A DNA stretch of 64,000 nt, from the NCBI RefSeq assembly GCF_000380165.1, contig NZ_KB904669.1:186185-250184 (forward strand), read 5' to 3'. Below the pieces are notes generated by a model, which had not been told where the DNA came from, did no database searches, and saw only the letters and a program-made list of their open reading frames with translations. The position numbers and the translations under genes were made by a program. Of this stretch, positions 41,245 through 63,951 are shown piece by piece (positions within the stretch are counted from its first letter, which is position 1; each line of letters begins with the position of its first letter). Source of the DNA: Wenjunlia vitaminophila DSM 41686 (lineage in GTDB: Bacteria; Actinomycetota; Actinomycetes; Streptomycetales; Streptomycetaceae).

Positions 41245-42317
41245 ACGACACCCCGTCGCTTCCCGAGCGCGACCTCCCGCCGGGCCGTCACCGACAGCTC
41301 AAGGAGCACCTGATGCGCGAGATACGACGCGACGACACCGCTGACAAGGCCCCGTCCCGGCCCCGGTGGCTGCGTCCGGCCGTCGCCGCACCCGCCGCCG
41401 CGGGCGTGCTGACCCTGGCGTTGGTCGCGGGCGTCACGGTGCTCGGCGGTTCGCACGGCGACGGCACGCCGACGGCGAAGGACCGCGGGAACGCCTCCCA
41501 GGTCACCCCGCACACCCCCGATGACCCGAGCGACCCCGTGCCGCTCCTCGACCGCATCGCCACGGTCGCGGCCGAGTCCACGGTGCCGGCGCACATCCGG
41601 GACGACCAGTTCGTCTACGTCCGCAGCATGGACACCTCCGTGGTCCAGACCCTGGACGTGGACAAGGACGGGAAGGCGAAGCCGACGAGGACGAAGGTCA
41701 TCCCCCTCCACAAACGGGAGGTGTGGCACTCGGTGGACGGCACCCGCGGGATCCTGATCCGCGACCGGGTGGCCCTCGGGCGCGACATCGACGTCACCGA
41801 GCCCGATCCGGCCCCCGGCGAGACCGGGTACGAGTACAGCAACAACTACCGTCACCTGGAGACCCTGCCCACCGACCCCGACGAGATGCTCCAGTGGCTG
41901 CTGTCGAACGGCGTCAAGGGAGAGGACCGCGACGCGAACCAGGAGGCGTTCAACCTCGTCCGGGACCTCATGGGCGAGGCACTGGTGCCGCCGGACGTCA
42001 GCGCGGCCATGTACCGGGCGGCGGGCAGGATTCCCGGAGTGATCGTCGTTCCCGACGTCAAGGACGCGGCGGGGCGTCCCGCCGTCGCCATCGCCCGGGT
42101 GGACTCGTACAACGGCGGCTGGTGCGACCAGGCCCTCTTCGACGAGAAGACCCTGGAGTTCCTGGGCAACCGCTCCGTCTGGATCAAGCCGGGCAAGGGG
42201 ACCGCCGGTAAGAAGATGACCACCCTGGAGCGGATCAGGGCAGGGAAGGTCACGAGCTCCAGCGCCGTGCTGGAGGTCACCGTCGTGGACAAGAAGGGCC
42301 AACTGCCCAAGGGCTGA
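41241..42317 (+). CDS. CU044_5270 family membrane-anchored protein
   Basis: The protein has 358 residues: a cytoplasmic N-terminus of about 50 residues (RDLPPGRHRQLKEHLMREIRRDD), one transmembrane helix (about 56-74), and an extracellular domain with IRDDQFVYVRSMDT, LHKREVWHSVDGTRG and VDSYNGGWCDQALF. CU044_5270 proteins are commonly encoded just after ECF-like sigma genes, as here (ATGA overlap), and probably act in signal transfer or as anti-sigma. The function is unproven. Confidence 0.85.
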   Translation: MNDTPSLPERDLPPGRHRQLKEHLMREIRRDDTADKAPSRPRWLRPAVAAPAAAGVLTLALVAGVTVLGGSHGDGTPTAKDRGNASQVTPHTPDDPSDPVPLLDRIATVAAESTVPAHIRDDQFVYVRSMDTSVVQTLDVDKDGKAKPTRTKVIPLHKREVWHSVDGTRGILIRDRVALGRDIDVTEPDPAPGETGYEYSNNYRHLETLPTDPDEMLQWLLSNGVKGEDRDANQEAFNLVRDLMGEALVPPDVSAAMYRAAGRIPGVIVVPDVKDAAGRPAVAIARVDSYNGGWCDQALFDEKTLEFLGNRSVWIKPGKGTAGKKMTTLERIRAGKVTSSSAVLEVTVVDKKGQLPKG

Positions 42318-42323
42318 CCCGAA

Positions 42324-42374
42324 CCCTGGGTCTCGGGTCCGGCGTGCGACGCGGACTCCAGCACGCCGGACCCG
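42324..42374. repeat. 51-bp hairpin repeat, copy 1
   Basis: This sequence recurs 1066 bases downstream (43390-43440) in the same orientation with a single difference (C at 42358, T at 43424). Each copy folds into a 14-bp stem, CGGGTCCGGCGTGC and its complement, around a 13-base loop (copy 1: 42334-42374). Copy 1 lies 7 bases after the CU044_5270 stop and can act as its terminator. Confidence 0.85.
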
Positions 42375-42488
42375 GGGGTTCTGCCACAGGAACGCCGCCG
42401 ACCGCCGTTGGGTGAGGGTGACCGCGACATGGGTTCGGGGGCGTCCACGACAACCGTTTGTCCGGACACTCTCCGACGCGGCCCCCGC

Positions 42489-42854
42489 TCACCGCGCCGG
42501 GGGGTCCGTGGCCCGCGGGTGGCCGGTCCCCGCGAAGGTGATCCAACACGTGGCGTTCGGGGTGTCCAGCAGGTACCAGATCCGGCCGCCCGAGGTCACC
42601 TCTATCTGCCACTGCTCGCAGGTCCGACCACGGTAAGTGCCGTGCGCGAGCTTGCCCTTCAGACGGTGGTGGCGCGAGGTCTCCGTCATCGGTGCCGGGT
42701 CGGTGCGCAGGGTGAGCCAGGCGCGGTAGGTGTTCTCCGCGGCCTGTTGGGAAAGGCACAACCAGCCCTTGGCGGAGGCCGCGTCGGCGAACCGCACCTC
42801 CCACTGCCCCTCCGGTGCGGGCGGTGCCGCCCGGTCCCCGCGCCCAGGGGTCAC
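42489..42854 (-). CDS. Small basic protein, probable RelE/ParE-like toxin
   Basis: The protein has 121 residues from a GTG that overlaps the upstream stop (GTGA). It contains WEVRFADAASAKGWLCL, a central LRTDPAPMTETSRHHRLKGKLAHGTYRG and EQWQIEVTSGGRIWYLLD. The strand-helix start and the later Leu-Lys-Gly-Lys, Gln-Trp and Arg-Ile-Trp-Tyr elements are in the order seen in RelE-type mRNA endonucleases (LKGKL..G..R..Y.I..GGRIWY). This is weak similarity judged by eye. Coupling to a Phd-like gene supports a toxin role. Confidence 0.6.
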   Translation of the reverse strand: MTPGRGDRAAPPAPEGQWEVRFADAASAKGWLCLSQQAAENTYRAWLTLRTDPAPMTETSRHHRLKGKLAHGTYRGRTCEQWQIEVTSGGRIWYLLDTPNATCWITFAGTGHPRATDPPAR

Positions 42855-43330
42855 GCGTCTTCCCTGGGGTCGGGAACGGGGCCGTGGTCGGTGTCGTGGC
42901 TCCTGGTCAGGGCGGCCAGTAGCTCGGGATCGGAGTGGATCTCGGCGGTGTGCTGCCAGGCGGTGAGCAACTGTGCCACGGACGCGCTGTTGGCGACGGA
43001 GTCCGCGGCGCGCATGGTGTCCACCAGTTCGACGGCGAACGTGTGGAGGTCCGGCTCCGGCAGGAAACGCACCCAGGGAAACGCGTCCGGCAGGATGTCG
43101 AGGAGCAGCTCCATGCTGCCGGGCTCCCGCCGGGCCATGGCGGAGAGCATGCGCGTGGCGGCGGAGACCACCGTCCGGTCCTGCTCGTCCCTGGCGGCCG
43201 TGGTGAGGACCAGGTCCTCCCCGTCCCGCCGGTGCAACACGAGCCGTGGCGACTCCTTGAGTCTGGCGAGCGTCTGCTTGTTTCGGTTCACCAGATCCGA
43301 GAAGTTCACCGCGGTGTTGTCGGAACCCAT
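42851..43330 (-). CDS. Phd/YefM-like antitoxin with C-terminal extension
   Basis: The protein has 159 residues from ATG (MGSDNTAVNFSDLVNRNKQTLARLKESPRLVLHRR). The N-terminal 60 residues have the Phd/YefM pattern (NFSDLV, LARLKESPRLVLHRRDGEDLVLTTAARD). The remaining 100 residues are acidic helices that may bind the toxin. A palindrome lies immediately upstream. A TTG at 43339 is an alternative start; TAGTTT 7 bases before the ATG could serve as -10 for a leaderless message. Confidence 0.65.
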   Translation of the reverse strand: MGSDNTAVNFSDLVNRNKQTLARLKESPRLVLHRRDGEDLVLTTAARDEQDRTVVSAATRMLSAMARREPGSMELLLDILPDAFPWVRFLPEPDLHTFAVELVDTMRAADSVANSASVAQLLTAWQHTAEIHSDPELLAALTRSHDTDHGPVPDPREDA

Positions 43331-43332
43331 GA

Positions 43333-43352
43333 GTTTCAAACTACTTCGAAAC
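43333..43352. promoter_or_regulatory. Imperfect 20-base palindrome upstream of the Phd-like gene
   Basis: GTTTCAAACTACTTCGAAAC is symmetric at 16 of 20 positions and sits 2 bases before the start codon. Its place suits autoregulation by the antitoxin. Confidence 0.55.
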
Positions 43353-43389
43353 CTGGGCGGGAGACTATCGCCCGGGAGGCTGAACCCCT

Positions 43390-43440
43390 CCCTGGGTCTC
43401 GGGTCCGGCGTGCGACGCGGACTTCAGCACGCCGGACCCG
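43390..43440. repeat. 51-bp hairpin repeat, copy 2
   Basis: This copy matches copy 1 (42324-42374) at 50 of 51 positions. It lies 17 bases beyond the end of paaN (minus) and can form the same 14-bp hairpin (43400-43440), so it may terminate paaN. Confidence 0.85.
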
Positions 43441-43457
43441 AGGGCTCTTCGGGGGGG

Positions 43458-58178: not shown

Positions 58179-58886
58179 ATGCTCACCGGTGTCACGGACT
58201 ATGACGCGATCATCCTCGCGGGGGGACAGGCACGCCGTCTGGGGGGTGTGGACAAACCCGGACTGCGGGTGGGCGGCAGCAGCCTGCTGGAACGGGTCCT
58301 CGGCGCCTGCGCCGGGGCGGCGCGGCTGATCGTGGTCGGCCCGCCCCGCCCGGTGGCCGAGCCGCACACCGCGGCGTCGGTGCGCTGGACCCGCGAGAAC
58401 CCGCCCGGCGGCGGCCCCCTCCCCGCGCTCGCCGCCGGGCTGGAACTGGTGACCGCGGACCTGGTGCTGCTGCTCGCCGCCGACCTGCCGTTCATGAACG
58501 CGGGAACGGTACGGAGACTGCTCGCCGAGGCCGTGTCCACCGACACGTTCACGCCTGGCGACACGTCCGCGCCCGCCGGTGCGCCCGCCGGTGCGCCCGC
58601 CGATGTGCCTGGCGGCGCCTCGGGCGGTGCCGACACGCCCGACGGCGCCGTGCTCGTCGATGCCGACGGCCATGACCAGCCACTGGCCGCCGCCTACCGG
58701 ACCGAGTCGCTCCGGGCCGGCCTCGACCGGCTCACCGCCGAGCACGGCACCCTGGCCGGCGTCGCCCTGCGCCGCCTGGTCTCCCCACTGACGCTGCGCC
58801 GGGTCGCGGACCGGGAGGGCACCTCGTTCGACTGTGACACCTGGGACGACGTCACCGCGGTGCGGGCCCGCATGGGGGAGGTCTGA
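58179..58886 (+). CDS. mobA: Molybdenum cofactor guanylyltransferase-like protein (MobA)
   Basis: The protein has 235 residues. The nucleotidyltransferase signature is IILAGGQARRLGGVDKPGL at about 10-28, with LAADLPFM and DQPLAAAYR later. It should convert Mo-molybdopterin to its guanine dinucleotide. A Pro/Gly/Ala repeat (about 131-155) is an unusual insertion. Its 3' 69 bases (58818-58886) recur in decayed form at 61501-61569 next to DUF6457. A TGTGGACAA DnaA-box match at 58247 lies in the coding sequence and is probably codon-driven. Confidence 0.88.
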   Translation: MLTGVTDYDAIILAGGQARRLGGVDKPGLRVGGSSLLERVLGACAGAARLIVVGPPRPVAEPHTAASVRWTRENPPGGGPLPALAAGLELVTADLVLLLAADLPFMNAGTVRRLLAEAVSTDTFTPGDTSAPAGAPAGAPADVPGGASGGADTPDGAVLVDADGHDQPLAAAYRTESLRAGLDRLTAEHGTLAGVALRRLVSPLTLRRVADREGTSFDCDTWDDVTAVRARMGEV

Positions 58887-58911
58887 GGCCGCCGGCGCCC
58901 GGCACCCGCGC

Positions 58912-59014
58912 CTTCACCGTCAGTTCACCCCGGCACTACCCGGGCTCTGTCGCACCGTCGGTACCGTGGCCGACGCTTACGCCGACCGTTCACCCCGCTG
59001 ACCTTTCACCCCGG
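58912..59014 (+). promoter_or_regulatory. PHO-box-like direct repeats upstream of the phosphodiesterase gene
   Basis: CTTCACCGTCA and GTTCACCCCGG (58912-58933) are two adjacent 11-base units matching the Streptomyces PhoP direct-repeat pattern GTTCACC-N4. GTTCACCCCGC (58988-58998) and TTTCACCCCGG (59004-59014) lie nearer the gene. PhoP control of glpQ genes is known in S. coelicolor, so phosphate-dependent expression is a reasonable inference. Confidence 0.7.
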
Positions 59015-59068
59015 AGACCCGGTGCCCTCCCGCCGCCGGGCGCTCGTCCCACCACACGAAGGCTGACC

Positions 59069-60160
59069 ATGAACCGCTGGCGCACGCTCGTCCCCGCAGC
59101 ACTGCTCGCCGGCACCGCGGTCCTCACCGCCGTGCCGGCAACCGCCTCCGCAGACCCCGCCCGGCCCACCGGTGACGGCCCCGTGGCCGGACAGCACCGG
59201 GGCGGCTTCGACCTCCAGGCGCACCGCGGCGGCCTCGGGCTGCGTCCGGAGTCCACCCTGGCCTCGTTCGCCAACGGCCTGGAGGTGGGCGTCTCCACGC
59301 TCGAACTCGACGTGCAGATCACCGAGGACGGCCAGGCCGTGGTCACCCACGACCGGAAGGTCAACGGTGCCAAGTGCCGCGACACCGCGCCGGTGGTCCC
59401 CGGTGACCCGGAGTTCCCCTACGCCGGCAAGTACGTCAACACCCTGACGCTGGCCCAGGTGCGGACGCTGGACTGCGGCTCGCAGACGCTGCCGCAGTTC
59501 CCCGAGCAGGTGCCCGCCCCGGGCGCCAGGATGCCCCTGCTGAGTGAGGTGTTCGACCTCGTCAAGCAGTACCGCGCCTACGACGTGAAGCTCAACGTGG
59601 AGACGAAGGTGGAGGCCGGGGCGCCGTCCGAGACGGCGCCGCGCGAGCAGTTCGTGCAGGTCACCGCGCGGGAGATCCGCCGGGCCGGCATGCTCCGCCA
59701 GGTCACCGTGCAGAGCTTCGACTGGGGCGCGCTGATGCGGATGCGCGAGGTGGAGCCCCGTCTGCCGCTGGTCGCCCTGGACAACGGCAGCTTCCTCCAG
59801 GTGGGTCGGCCGGGCGCCTCCCCGTGGCTCGGCGGCATCGACATCGACGACTTCGGCGGCGACCCGCTGAAGGCCGTGAAGTCGTTCGGGGCGAGCGCCT
59901 ACTCGCCGGTGCACGGCAACCCGCAGAACGGCACCGTGCAGGACCCGGACTACGTGCCCTACGTCACCGCGGACACGGTGCGGCGGGCCCACCGGCTCGG
60001 CCTGAAGGTCGTTCCGTGGACCGTCGATGACGCCCCCACCATGCACAAGCTGATCGACGACGGCGTGGACGGCATCATCACGGACTACCCGGACCGGCTC
60101 CGCGAGGTGCTCGCCGACCGCGGCTACCCGCTCCCCAGGCAGCACCGCGCCCACAACTGA
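59069..60160 (+). CDS. glpQ: Secreted glycerophosphodiester phosphodiesterase (GlpQ-like)
   Basis: The protein has 363 residues. A signal peptide (about 1-29, ending ATASA) directs export. The GDPD barrel has QAHRGGLGLRPESTLASF with the catalytic His, LELDVQITEDGQAVVTHDRKV with metal ligands and second His, VQSFDWGAL, and DGIITDYPDRL near the end. It releases glycerol phosphate from deacylated phospholipids or teichoic acid fragments outside the cell. PHO-box-like repeats precede it. Confidence 0.93.
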   Translation: MNRWRTLVPAALLAGTAVLTAVPATASADPARPTGDGPVAGQHRGGFDLQAHRGGLGLRPESTLASFANGLEVGVSTLELDVQITEDGQAVVTHDRKVNGAKCRDTAPVVPGDPEFPYAGKYVNTLTLAQVRTLDCGSQTLPQFPEQVPAPGARMPLLSEVFDLVKQYRAYDVKLNVETKVEAGAPSETAPREQFVQVTAREIRRAGMLRQVTVQSFDWGALMRMREVEPRLPLVALDNGSFLQVGRPGASPWLGGIDIDDFGGDPLKAVKSFGASAYSPVHGNPQNGTVQDPDYVPYVTADTVRRAHRLGLKVVPWTVDDAPTMHKLIDDGVDGIITDYPDRLREVLADRGYPLPRQHRAHN

Positions 60161-60178
60161 GCCCACAACTGAGCCCGC

Positions 60179-60213
60179 ACCCGGGCGCCGCGCGGTCCGT
60201 GCGGCGCCCGGGT
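60179..60213. terminator. Terminator after the phosphodiesterase gene, followed by short tandem repeats
   Basis: ACCCGGGCGCCGC pairs with GCGGCGCCCGGGT (13 bp) around a 9-base loop. Right after it, TCCGTGTGGCGCCC occurs twice at 16-base spacing; before it CCCACAACTGAG is partly duplicated. The repeats suggest slippage in a hairpin-rich spacer. Confidence 0.75.
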
Positions 60214-60363
60214 CCGTGTGGCGCCCGGGTCCGTGTGGCGCCCCGGGGTCGCGGTCCGTGTGACGTCCGGCGCCGGCCGGGGAGGCGCCGCGCGGCTGGC
60301 GGGCCACGGCGGCTTCGTGGGGCGTTCACCCGCTGGTCGCCCGCGGGCCCTACGGTTCCGGCC

Positions 60364-61425
60364 ATGCGCGATCACCGTCCTTCCCGACGCTCCCTGCTGG
60401 CCGGCTCCCTGGGTGGGGCCGCCGCCCTGGCCCTCGGCCCCGGGCCCGCCGCCGCCGCCGACGACGTCCAGCACCGTCCCCGACGGCGGCTGAGCGTGCT
60501 CGTCGCCTCCAACGAACCGTGGGGCACCTACCACACCAGACCGCTGCTCGCCGAGGCCGCCCGCCAGGGCCACCGGCTGACGCACCTGGTCCCCGACCTC
60601 TCCCGGGTCGCCGCGGGCGACCCGGTGCCGGTGGCCGTCCCCGGCGCGGAGCCGCCCGCGGACCTGCTGGTCGTCACCGGCGCCGGGGACTGGCCCGTGG
60701 ACTGCGCGGCCCGCCTGCTGACACGTCCCGGGCTGCCCCTGGTGGCCTCCTCCCTCGCCTACCTCAAGCCCGAGCGGGCCCCGCGCGCGGGCGAGCTGCG
60801 CCGGCGGCTGCGCGCGGTCACCTCCTCCTCCCCGGCCGAGGCGCGGGCCTTCTCCGCGTACCTCGGCACCGACCGGCCGGTCCGCGTGGTCGGCTCGCCA
60901 CAGACCGACGACCTGCCGCCCCGCCGGCCGGAGAAGGACCTGGTGCTGGTCCTCACCAGCGTCACCCACCCCGACGCCACCGGAGCCGCCGCTCCCGGCA
61001 CCGAACTGCTGCTCGCCTCCGCCGGGGAACTCGCCGCCGCCGGGAAGAGAGTGCTGGTCGGACTGCACCCCCGCGAGGACCGCTCGCTGTGGGACCGGTA
61101 CGAGATCAGCGACGTCCCCTCGGTGACCGCCGCCGCCCGTGCCGAGGCGGCGATCGGCATCCCCGGCACCGTCTTCCCCCTGGTCGCCGCGGTCGGCACC
61201 CCGGTGGTGGGCTGCACCGACCCCCGGCTCGCCGTCCCCGACTACCTGCTGGACGTCTGCTCCAGCACCGTCGCCGACGCCGGCCAGGCGGTTCCCGCCG
61301 TGGCGGGCGCCCGCCTCCCGGCCGCCGACGTGCTGGCCGACGCCGTGGGGCCGGTCGGCGGCTCGGCGCGCCGCCTGTTGGGGGTCTGGGCCGACGCCGT
61401 CCACGGTGGTGGCCCCGCCCGGTGA
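60364..61425 (+). CDS. Protein with Tat signal peptide and glycosyltransferase-B-like fold, function unknown
   Basis: The protein has 353 residues. It starts MRDHRPSRRSLLAGSLGGAA, a twin-arginine signal ending near AAAAD (about 33). The mature part has alternating strands and helices (RRLSVLVASNEPWGTYHTRPLLAEA, LLVVTGAGDWPV, VRVVGSPQTDDLPP, VLVLTSVTHP, KRVLVGLHPRED, AAIGIPGTVFPLVAAVGTPVVG) resembling glycosyltransferase-B or CDP-glycerol glycerophosphotransferase-like domains. No catalytic residues can be assigned. It shares the interruption of the mobA-DUF6457 locus with the phosphodiesterase. Confidence 0.7.
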   Translation: MRDHRPSRRSLLAGSLGGAAALALGPGPAAAADDVQHRPRRRLSVLVASNEPWGTYHTRPLLAEAARQGHRLTHLVPDLSRVAAGDPVPVAVPGAEPPADLLVVTGAGDWPVDCAARLLTRPGLPLVASSLAYLKPERAPRAGELRRRLRAVTSSSPAEARAFSAYLGTDRPVRVVGSPQTDDLPPRRPEKDLVLVLTSVTHPDATGAAAPGTELLLASAGELAAAGKRVLVGLHPREDRSLWDRYEISDVPSVTAAARAEAAIGIPGTVFPLVAAVGTPVVGCTDPRLAVPDYLLDVCSSTVADAGQAVPAVAGARLPAADVLADAVGPVGGSARRLLGVWADAVHGGGPAR

Positions 61426-61500
61426 CGCGGGGCGGCCCCGGTGGTGACGGTCTCCCGGTCGGCCCCTGGTCCCCCGCCCGGCGGGGCGGGGGACCGACCT

Positions 61501-61569
61501 GGCACCTCGTTCGACTACGACACCTGGGACGACGTCACCGCGGTGCGAGCCGGCATCGGTAAGGATTGA
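61501..61569 (+). pseudogene. Residual 3' end of a mobA copy
   Basis: These 69 bases match the 3' end of mobA (58818-58886) at 60 positions, including the stop codon. They would encode GTSFDYDTWDDVTAVRAGIGKD and then stop, with no upstream mobA sequence. They lie directly before the DUF6457 gene, where mobA would be expected. Confidence 0.85.
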
Positions 61570-61572
61570 CTC

Positions 61573-61839
61573 GTGCTGGAGACATGGATCGCTCAGGTCA
61601 AGTCCGAACTCGGCATCGAGCTGGAGGTGGACACCGCCGTACTGCTCGACCTCGCCCGGGACGCCGCGCACGGGGTGGCCAGGCCGGCCGCGCCGCTCAC
61701 CACCTTCCTGGTCGGCTACGCCGCGGGACGGGCCGGCGGTGATCCGCAGGCGGTGGCGGAGGCCGCGCGGAAGGCCCAGTCGCTCGCGCTGGCCTGGGCC
61801 GAACAGCAGGAACGCGCAGCCGAAGAGCCCACGCCATGA
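61573..61839 (+). CDS. DUF6457 protein associated with molybdenum cofactor genes
   Basis: The protein has 88 residues from GTG (MLETWIAQVKSELGIELEVDTAVLLDLARDAAHGV...). It is a small helical domain (TTFLVGYAAGRAGG) that in actinobacteria is encoded after, or fused to, MobA. It starts 3 bases after the mobA remnant and overlaps moeA by ATGA. The function is unknown; context points to cofactor delivery. Confidence 0.85.
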   Translation: MLETWIAQVKSELGIELEVDTAVLLDLARDAAHGVARPAAPLTTFLVGYAAGRAGGDPQAVAEAARKAQSLALAWAEQQERAAEEPTP

Positions 61840-63200
61840 CGTCCAGGACCGAGTCCGACCAGGCCCGTCCTCCCGGCGACCCGGCCCCCGCGCAGCCGTC
61901 GTCCGCCCCGCCGCCGGACCCCGCAGCGACGGACGAGGGCCCCCGGGGCACCCCCCGCCACCCCGCCCACCGCAACTCCGTCGACTGGCCCGAGGCGCGG
62001 CGGATCGCCGCGGACGCCCCCACGGGGCCGCTCCCGACGGTCGTGCTGCCCCTGGCCGAGGCCAGAGGCAGGGTCCTCGCGCAGCCACTGACCGCGCTCA
62101 CCGACCTGCCGGCGTTCGACACCTCCGCCATGGACGGTTGGGCCGTCGCAGGACCGGGCCCCTGGCGGCTCAGCGGCAGGGTGCTCGCCGGTGAACAGGG
62201 CCCGGTGTCGCTCCCGGACGGCACCGCCGTCGGCATCGCCACCGGCGCCCGACTCCCCCGGGGCGCCACCGCGGTGCTGCGCAGCGAACACGGCACCGTG
62301 CGCCGGGGCACCCTGCACGCCACCGAGCCGGGCGGCCCGCAGCCCGGACAGGACGTGCGGCCCCGCGGCCAGGAGTGCCACTCCGGGGACGAGTTGCTCC
62401 CGGCCGGCGCCGTCGTCACGCCGGTGGTCCTGGGGCTCGCCGCCGCCGCCGGGTACGACGAGCTGGCGCTGTTCCCCCGGCCCACGGTCGAGGTGCTGGT
62501 GCTCGGCGACGAACTGCTCACCGCGGGGCTCCCCGAGGACGGCCGCATCCGCGACGCCCTCGGGCCCTTCCTCCACCCCTGGTTGTGCGCGCTCGGTGCC
62601 GAGGTGCTGGCCACCCGGCGGATCACCGACGAGGCCGAGGCCCTGCTGGACGCCGTGGCGAACAGCGCCGCCGACGTGGTCGTCACCACCGGCGGCACCG
62701 CGTCCGGCCCCGTCGACTTCGTCAAGCCGGTCCTGCGCAGGCTCGGCGCCGGCCTCCTGGTGGACGGGGTGCGGGTGCGGCCGGGGCATCCCATGCTGCT
62801 CGCCGAACTGCCCGGCGGACGCCACTTGGTCGGACTGCCCGGGAACCCCCTGGCCGCGGTCTCCGGCGTGGTCACCCTGGTGCAGCCCCTGCTGCGTGCC
62901 CTCGCCGGACACCCGGCGCCCCCCACCGGCACCGCACGTGCCGCCGCCGCCGTTCCGGGCCACCCGGTGGACACCCGTCTGGTCCCGGTCGCCCTCGGCT
63001 CCGGGGCGGAGGTTCCGCCGTTGGCCCGTCCGCTGCGCTTCAACGGTCCGGCGATGCTGCGCGGGTTGGCCACCGCGGACGCCCTCGCCGTCGTCCCACC
63101 CGGCGGTTCCGCGGCCGGCGACGACGTCGAGCTGCTGGCCCTGCCCTGGGCCCGTACCGCCCTTCCCGCGGGAGCCTCCGAGTCGCCTTCGCCCACCTGA
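61836..63200 (+). CDS. moeA: Molybdopterin molybdenumtransferase (MoeA)
   Basis: The protein has 454 residues. After a Pro-rich, probably disordered N-terminus (about 1-45) come MoeA motifs: LPAFDTSAMDGWAV, IATGARLPRGATAVLRSE, DVVVTTGGTASGPVDFVKPVL, LPGNPLAAVSGVVTLV. It inserts molybdate into adenylylated molybdopterin. Coupled to DUF6457, it completes the cofactor set with mobA. Confidence 0.93.
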   Translation: MTSRTESDQARPPGDPAPAQPSSAPPPDPAATDEGPRGTPRHPAHRNSVDWPEARRIAADAPTGPLPTVVLPLAEARGRVLAQPLTALTDLPAFDTSAMDGWAVAGPGPWRLSGRVLAGEQGPVSLPDGTAVGIATGARLPRGATAVLRSEHGTVRRGTLHATEPGGPQPGQDVRPRGQECHSGDELLPAGAVVTPVVLGLAAAAGYDELALFPRPTVEVLVLGDELLTAGLPEDGRIRDALGPFLHPWLCALGAEVLATRRITDEAEALLDAVANSAADVVVTTGGTASGPVDFVKPVLRRLGAGLLVDGVRVRPGHPMLLAELPGGRHLVGLPGNPLAAVSGVVTLVQPLLRALAGHPAPPTGTARAAAAVPGHPVDTRLVPVALGSGAEVPPLARPLRFNGPAMLRGLATADALAVVPPGGSAAGDDVELLALPWARTALPAGASESPSPT

Positions 63201-63522: not shown

Positions 63523-63951
63523 TCAGACAGGCCGTTTCTGGTTCTCGATGTACTGCTTTACGACGGTCAGTGGTGTGCCGCCGCAGCTTCCGGCGAAGTA
63601 GGAGCCGGACCAGAAGTGTCCCCCCCACAGGTACCGGCGGACGTGGCTGTCGTACTCCTTGCGCAGCAGACGGGCCGAGACGCCCTTGAGGGAGTTGACC
63701 AGCTTGGAGAGCTGGACCTTGGGCGGGTAGTGCACCAGGAGGTGCACGTGGTCGTCCTCGCCGTTGAACTGCTTGAGTTCGGCCTCGAAGTCCTCGCAGA
63801 CCTCCCGCATGATCTCCTCACAGCGCGTGAGCATGGCGTCCGTCATGGCCTTGCGCCGGTACTTCGTGACGAAAACCAAGTGGACATGCAGGTGGTAGAC
63901 GACGTGACGTCCAGTACGTACGTCGGGATTGGGGTTCCATCTCGGTGACAT
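63523..63951 (-). CDS. tnpA: IS200/IS605 TnpA transposase (HUH Y1)
   Basis: The protein has 142 residues, full length for TnpA. The HUH motif is His68-Val-His70 in DDHVHLLVHYPP, and the nucleophile is Tyr134 in VKQYIENQ. The fold elements YHLHVHLVFVTKYRR and LWGGHFWSGSYF match the family. It cuts and joins single-stranded ends, usually at hairpins. No frameshift is seen, so the gene may be active. Confidence 0.95.
   Translation of the reverse strand: MSPRWNPNPDVRTGRHVVYHLHVHLVFVTKYRRKAMTDAMLTRCEEIMREVCEDFEAELKQFNGEDDHVHLLVHYPPKVQLSKLVNSLKGVSARLLRKEYDSHVRRYLWGGHFWSGSYFAGSCGGTPLTVVKQYIENQKRPV

Follow-up and report, generated by a model that had tools for sequence, protein, structure and literature searches.

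A 2.6-kb insertion bordered by a duplicated mobA end separates mobA from DUF6457 in Wenjunlia vitaminophila

In Wenjunlia vitaminophila DSM 41686 a 2.6-kb insertion lies between the genes mobA and DUF6457, and the end of mobA occurs a second time, as a remnant, directly before DUF6457 (Table 1). The locus was studied in a window of 64,000 nucleotides, the whole stretch of DNA that was analysed (NCBI RefSeq assembly GCF_000380165.1, contig NZ_KB904669.1, positions 186,185 to 250,184). The history that we favour, and regard as probable, is the fission of a fused gene by a TGA stop codon, followed by an illegitimate insertion of the 2.6-kb segment in which about 69 bp of the mobA end were duplicated.

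Table 1. Features of the mobA-DUF6457-moeA locus, with positions in the window.
Feature	Position	Strand	Evidence
mobA, MobA-like NTP transferase, intact, ending in TGA	58179..58886	+	PF12804 E=1.8e-28; orthologues at the same locus in relatives
End of mobA, forming the left repeat (69 bp, direct)	58818..58886	+	60/69 identical to 61501-61569
Inserted segment, 2.6-kb	58887..61500	.	Not between mobA and DUF6457 in any relative examined
Secreted glycerophosphodiester phosphodiesterase (GDPD)	59069..60160	+	PF03009 E=4.5e-40; 70-77% identity to proteins elsewhere
Promoter-like signal GTTCAC-N21-TACGGT, 5' of the Tat gene	60324..60356	+	Kept before orthologues, spacer 21-22 nt
Tat-signal protein gene (Tat gene)	60364..61425	+	Sub-threshold TAT_signal match
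Perfect 12-bp GC-rich hairpin just 5' of the remnant; possible terminator without T tract	61468..61495	+	
Remnant: second mobA 3' end (right repeat), 22 codons without a stop, then TGA	61501..61569	+	Repeat alignment
DUF6457 gene	61573..61839	+	PF20058 E=1.6e-28; fused to MobA in 100/111 relative loci
moeA	61836..63200	+	PF03453, PF00994, PF03454

The initial annotation had described the last 69 bases of mobA as repeated with nine changes before DUF6457, and alignment gives exactly that: the two copies are 69 nt each and differ by nine mismatches with no gaps, and TGA ends both at the same codon. The local alignment score of the repeat was 44, against a maximum of 16 in a control in which mobA was compared with 200-bp pieces from elsewhere in the window (380 pieces). 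Homology is limited on the right by the mobA TGA and on the left at about 61501; when the repeat is extended left to 61481, identity falls to ~81% over 89 nt. The remnant translates as GTSFDYDTWDDVTAVRAGIGKD followed by a stop, in a frame with no upstream stop until 61423. Identity between the two tails is 87%, compared with 72-75% to the tail of Wenjunlia tyrosinilytica. A third apparent copy (G000:C90:84698) was taken as a chance match, being 83% identical over 44 nt with no MobA match there. The MobA-like NTP transferase domain of the mobA product scores well above the Pfam cut-off (PF12804, 100.2 bits vs 27), and the NCBIfam equivalog MobA models match it below their cut-offs only. In the literature searched no mention of DUF6457 was found.

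Relatives were compared at the 111 loci which carry both mobA and DUF6457 (a few genomes enter twice). The two form one continuous reading frame in 100 of these loci; the remaining 11 have them split yet within about 330 nt of each other. The adjacency or fusion of the genes that the initial annotation gave for Streptomyces is borne out. None of the 111 loci has a gene between them, and moeA comes next. The contiguity of mobA, DUF6457 and moeA that had been predicted for relatives is therefore what the comparison gives, with neither the phosphodiesterase nor the Tat gene in between, and the arrangement named as speaking against it, the phosphodiesterase flanked by two full mobA genes, was seen in no relative examined. 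The proposal that an insertion placed both genes between mobA and DUF6457 is upheld by their absence from that position in relatives. Fusion of DUF6457 to MobA is found in most Streptomycetaceae examined, and W. tyrosinilytica, the sole genus-mate compared, has the fused gene. Judged from these gene orders, MobA and DUF6457 most likely shared one open reading frame in the ancestor.

The two tails have derived bases in common which are rare or absent in relatives, at tail positions 4, 44, 45, 64 and 67, the last being the T of the TGA. Because these bases, the TGA included, occur in both copies, the tails are each other's closest relatives and go back to a single tail of this lineage in which the stop codon was already present. 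The split by the TGA, as read from the tails, came before the duplication and insertion. The intact copy accounts for about four of the nine differences (positions 18, 57, 65 and 66) and the remnant for another four (17, 52, 60 and 61); at position 48 the copy that changed is ambiguous. The remnant had been portrayed as now decaying, which is not demonstrated: changes are about equal between the copies and its frame is still open. One Cys codon, almost invariant among relatives, has been lost from it; this would be consistent with relaxed constraint, although 69 bp are too short to test that.

Divergence at fourfold sites between the window and W. tyrosinilytica is 43-51% in E2, MobA and MoeA and 32% of 25 sites in DUF6457, values which are probably near saturation at the given G+C content. 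The repeat copies have diverged at 9/69 positions (13%). Since this is set against 43-51% at fourfold sites, the event is placed after the genus split: on this comparison the insertion and duplication appear clearly younger than the split, and perhaps younger by several-fold. Dating the remnant by divergence, as had been suggested, thus yields a relative age and cannot yield an absolute date; with one other genome of the genus compared, the insertion can be neither placed within the species nor well dated.

The insert holds the GDPD and Tat genes only, with no recombinase, integrase, transposase or phage gene in its 2.6 kb, and no further copy of it was found in the genome. Neither a close GDPD (best match E 8e-8) nor a Tat gene was found in W. 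tyrosinilytica. Relatives of the GDPD that are 70-77% identical lie at unrelated loci in three genera (g2, g5 and g15). The Tat protein has no Pfam domain above cut-off and no NCBIfam or PDB relative, and its single-sequence AlphaFold model has a pLDDT of 36.6. Its orthologues are 77% identical in genome G015 and 62-73% identical in Nonomuraea and family f21. With the genome of the window included, the Tat gene is present in 2 of 120 relatives and, within the class, in 12 of 198 genomes, the other 11 of which all belong to family f21; in the plasmid collection its sole match is a chromosome-sized Nonomuraea record. In none of the surroundings examined in other genomes does a GDPD adjoin the Tat gene, and G015 carries both at unrelated loci. 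Because they are not adjacent elsewhere, the two genes may have come in two steps.

Just 5' of the Tat gene start codon is the signal GTTCAC-N21/22-TACSGT, which has six occurrences in 2.96 Mb, all at the Tat gene, and was found again at 10 of 11 further homologue loci, some from the same genomes. The signal is kept across families (60324-60366), and with it the start of the Tat gene seems to be leaderless or nearly so. GTTCAC resembles part of the PhoP-binding repeats of Streptomyces. Two GTTCACC motifs also stand 5' of the GDPD gene, at 58923 and 58988; none were seen before GDPD orthologues. In Streptomyces, PhoP controls glpQ1 and glpQ2, which encode secreted GDPDs, and the PHO box consists of two 11-nt direct repeats (PMC7866108). 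A PhoP-regulated gene is recognised by two such repeats overlapping the -35 region; before the Tat gene the GTTCAC element is kept at fixed spacing, and no clear second repeat accompanies it. We treat a response of both insert genes to phosphate starvation as a lead and do not count it as a result.

Downstream, the hairpin stands between the Tat gene and the remnant. No T-tract terminator was found, and the fold of the wider stretch around the hairpin is unexceptional (z -1.47). Within the remnant, AAGGA lies seven bases 5' of the DUF6457 GTG, and the computed anti-SD pairing for DUF6457 is weak (-5.6 kcal/mol). We infer that DUF6457 may now use the remnant as its leader and ribosome-binding region.

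The favoured history would begin with an ancestor carrying one MobA-DUF6457 fusion gene followed by moeA. A TGA would have arisen at the domain junction and split mobA from DUF6457, with a restart at the GTG 3 nt downstream. Later the segment with genes for the secreted phosphodiesterase and the Tat-exported protein would have entered the junction, presumably as a single event, and an illegitimate process such as end-joining or template-switch would have left the final ~69 bp of mobA in two copies. The one on the left would then complete mobA, and the one on the right would stay before DUF6457 in the leader role suggested above. Illegitimate insertion with target duplication is our best guess because the insert is without a recombinase or transposon. 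A transposon is not indicated: there is no transposase inside the insert and terminal inverted repeats were not found, the inverted repeats that were found being local hairpins (arms were searched up to 60 nt apart). An IS200-like transposase gene (63523-63951, minus strand; PF01797 E=4.7e-46) lies directly 3' of moeA near the contig end, and is thus outside the insert.

Other routes to this layout were weighed. The repeats could be attL/attR-like, left by an element that used the mobA 3' end as attP and has since lost its integrase. The arrangement fits, since foreign genes lie between a gene that is intact and a repeat of that gene's 3' end; however, the 2.6 kb hold no integrase or phage gene, none of the 111 relative loci has an insertion here, so the site is not a recurrent target, and the lineage-specific bases common to the tails mean that the element must have taken its tail from the same lineage. 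We consider site-specific integration unlikely. Also unlikely is a rearrangement in which the mobA-DUF6457 junction was duplicated in tandem and the first DUF6457 was replaced by the GDPD and Tat genes, possibly separately. The unrelated loci of these two genes in every other genome examined, G015 included, would suit such a path, but it requires more events, and no remains of another DUF6457 follow the first TGA.

It is more doubtful still that the full-length mobA is foreign, having arrived from a sister lineage together with the GDPD and Tat genes and leaving the 69-bp remnant as the last of the native mobA. This would account for the free tree, in which the window MobA falls outside a pairing with W. 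tyrosinilytica (95/90 branch). A clade of the two is nevertheless not rejected (p-AU 0.19), MoeA, which lies outside the insert, behaves in the same way in the tree test, the E2 gene order upstream of mobA is native by comparison with relatives, and the private bases common to the tails demand a very close donor.

Elsewhere in the window there is a second pair of direct repeats of ~71 bp and 90% identity (42312-42382 and 43378-43448), each a GC-rich hairpin. Between them are two minus-strand open reading frames, 42489-42854 and 42851-43339, of which the second matches DUF6247 below threshold. In the corresponding regions of 10 relatives, the genes of this second islet were not found next to the PaaN-like gene. 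The idea that small gene sets are captured repeatedly at gene ends in this genome, through a mechanism that copies ~70 bp of the gene end, is highly speculative and unlikely to hold; if it were true and general, it would represent an undescribed recombinase-free capture route for small gene sets.

The mobA-DUF6457 locus is a well-documented scar of an otherwise ordinary rearrangement. Its value lies in being a polarised record, from fused gene to stop codon to insertion with a duplicated junction, of stepwise fission and gene gain. It also shows that the physical linkage of MobA and DUF6457 is dispensable, and so opens the role of the fusion to testing.

Compared with known systems, the locus is like other insertions with target duplication by illegitimate recombination in that foreign genes are flanked by duplicated host sequence and the host genes are intact. 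Target duplications made by transposons are much shorter than 69 bp, and they differ further in that no transposase is present here. Genomic islets at gene 3' ends with att-like repeats are similar in that the repeat equals the 3' end and the gene stays intact, and here too a direct repeat of the gene 3' end is found at both ends; they differ in that this insert has no recombinase, the site is unused in relatives and there are two cargo genes only. As in gene fission of other two-domain proteins, a fused MobA-DUF6457 would have become two genes through a stop codon and then physical separation, but here the duplicated tail preserves a record of the fission at the site itself.
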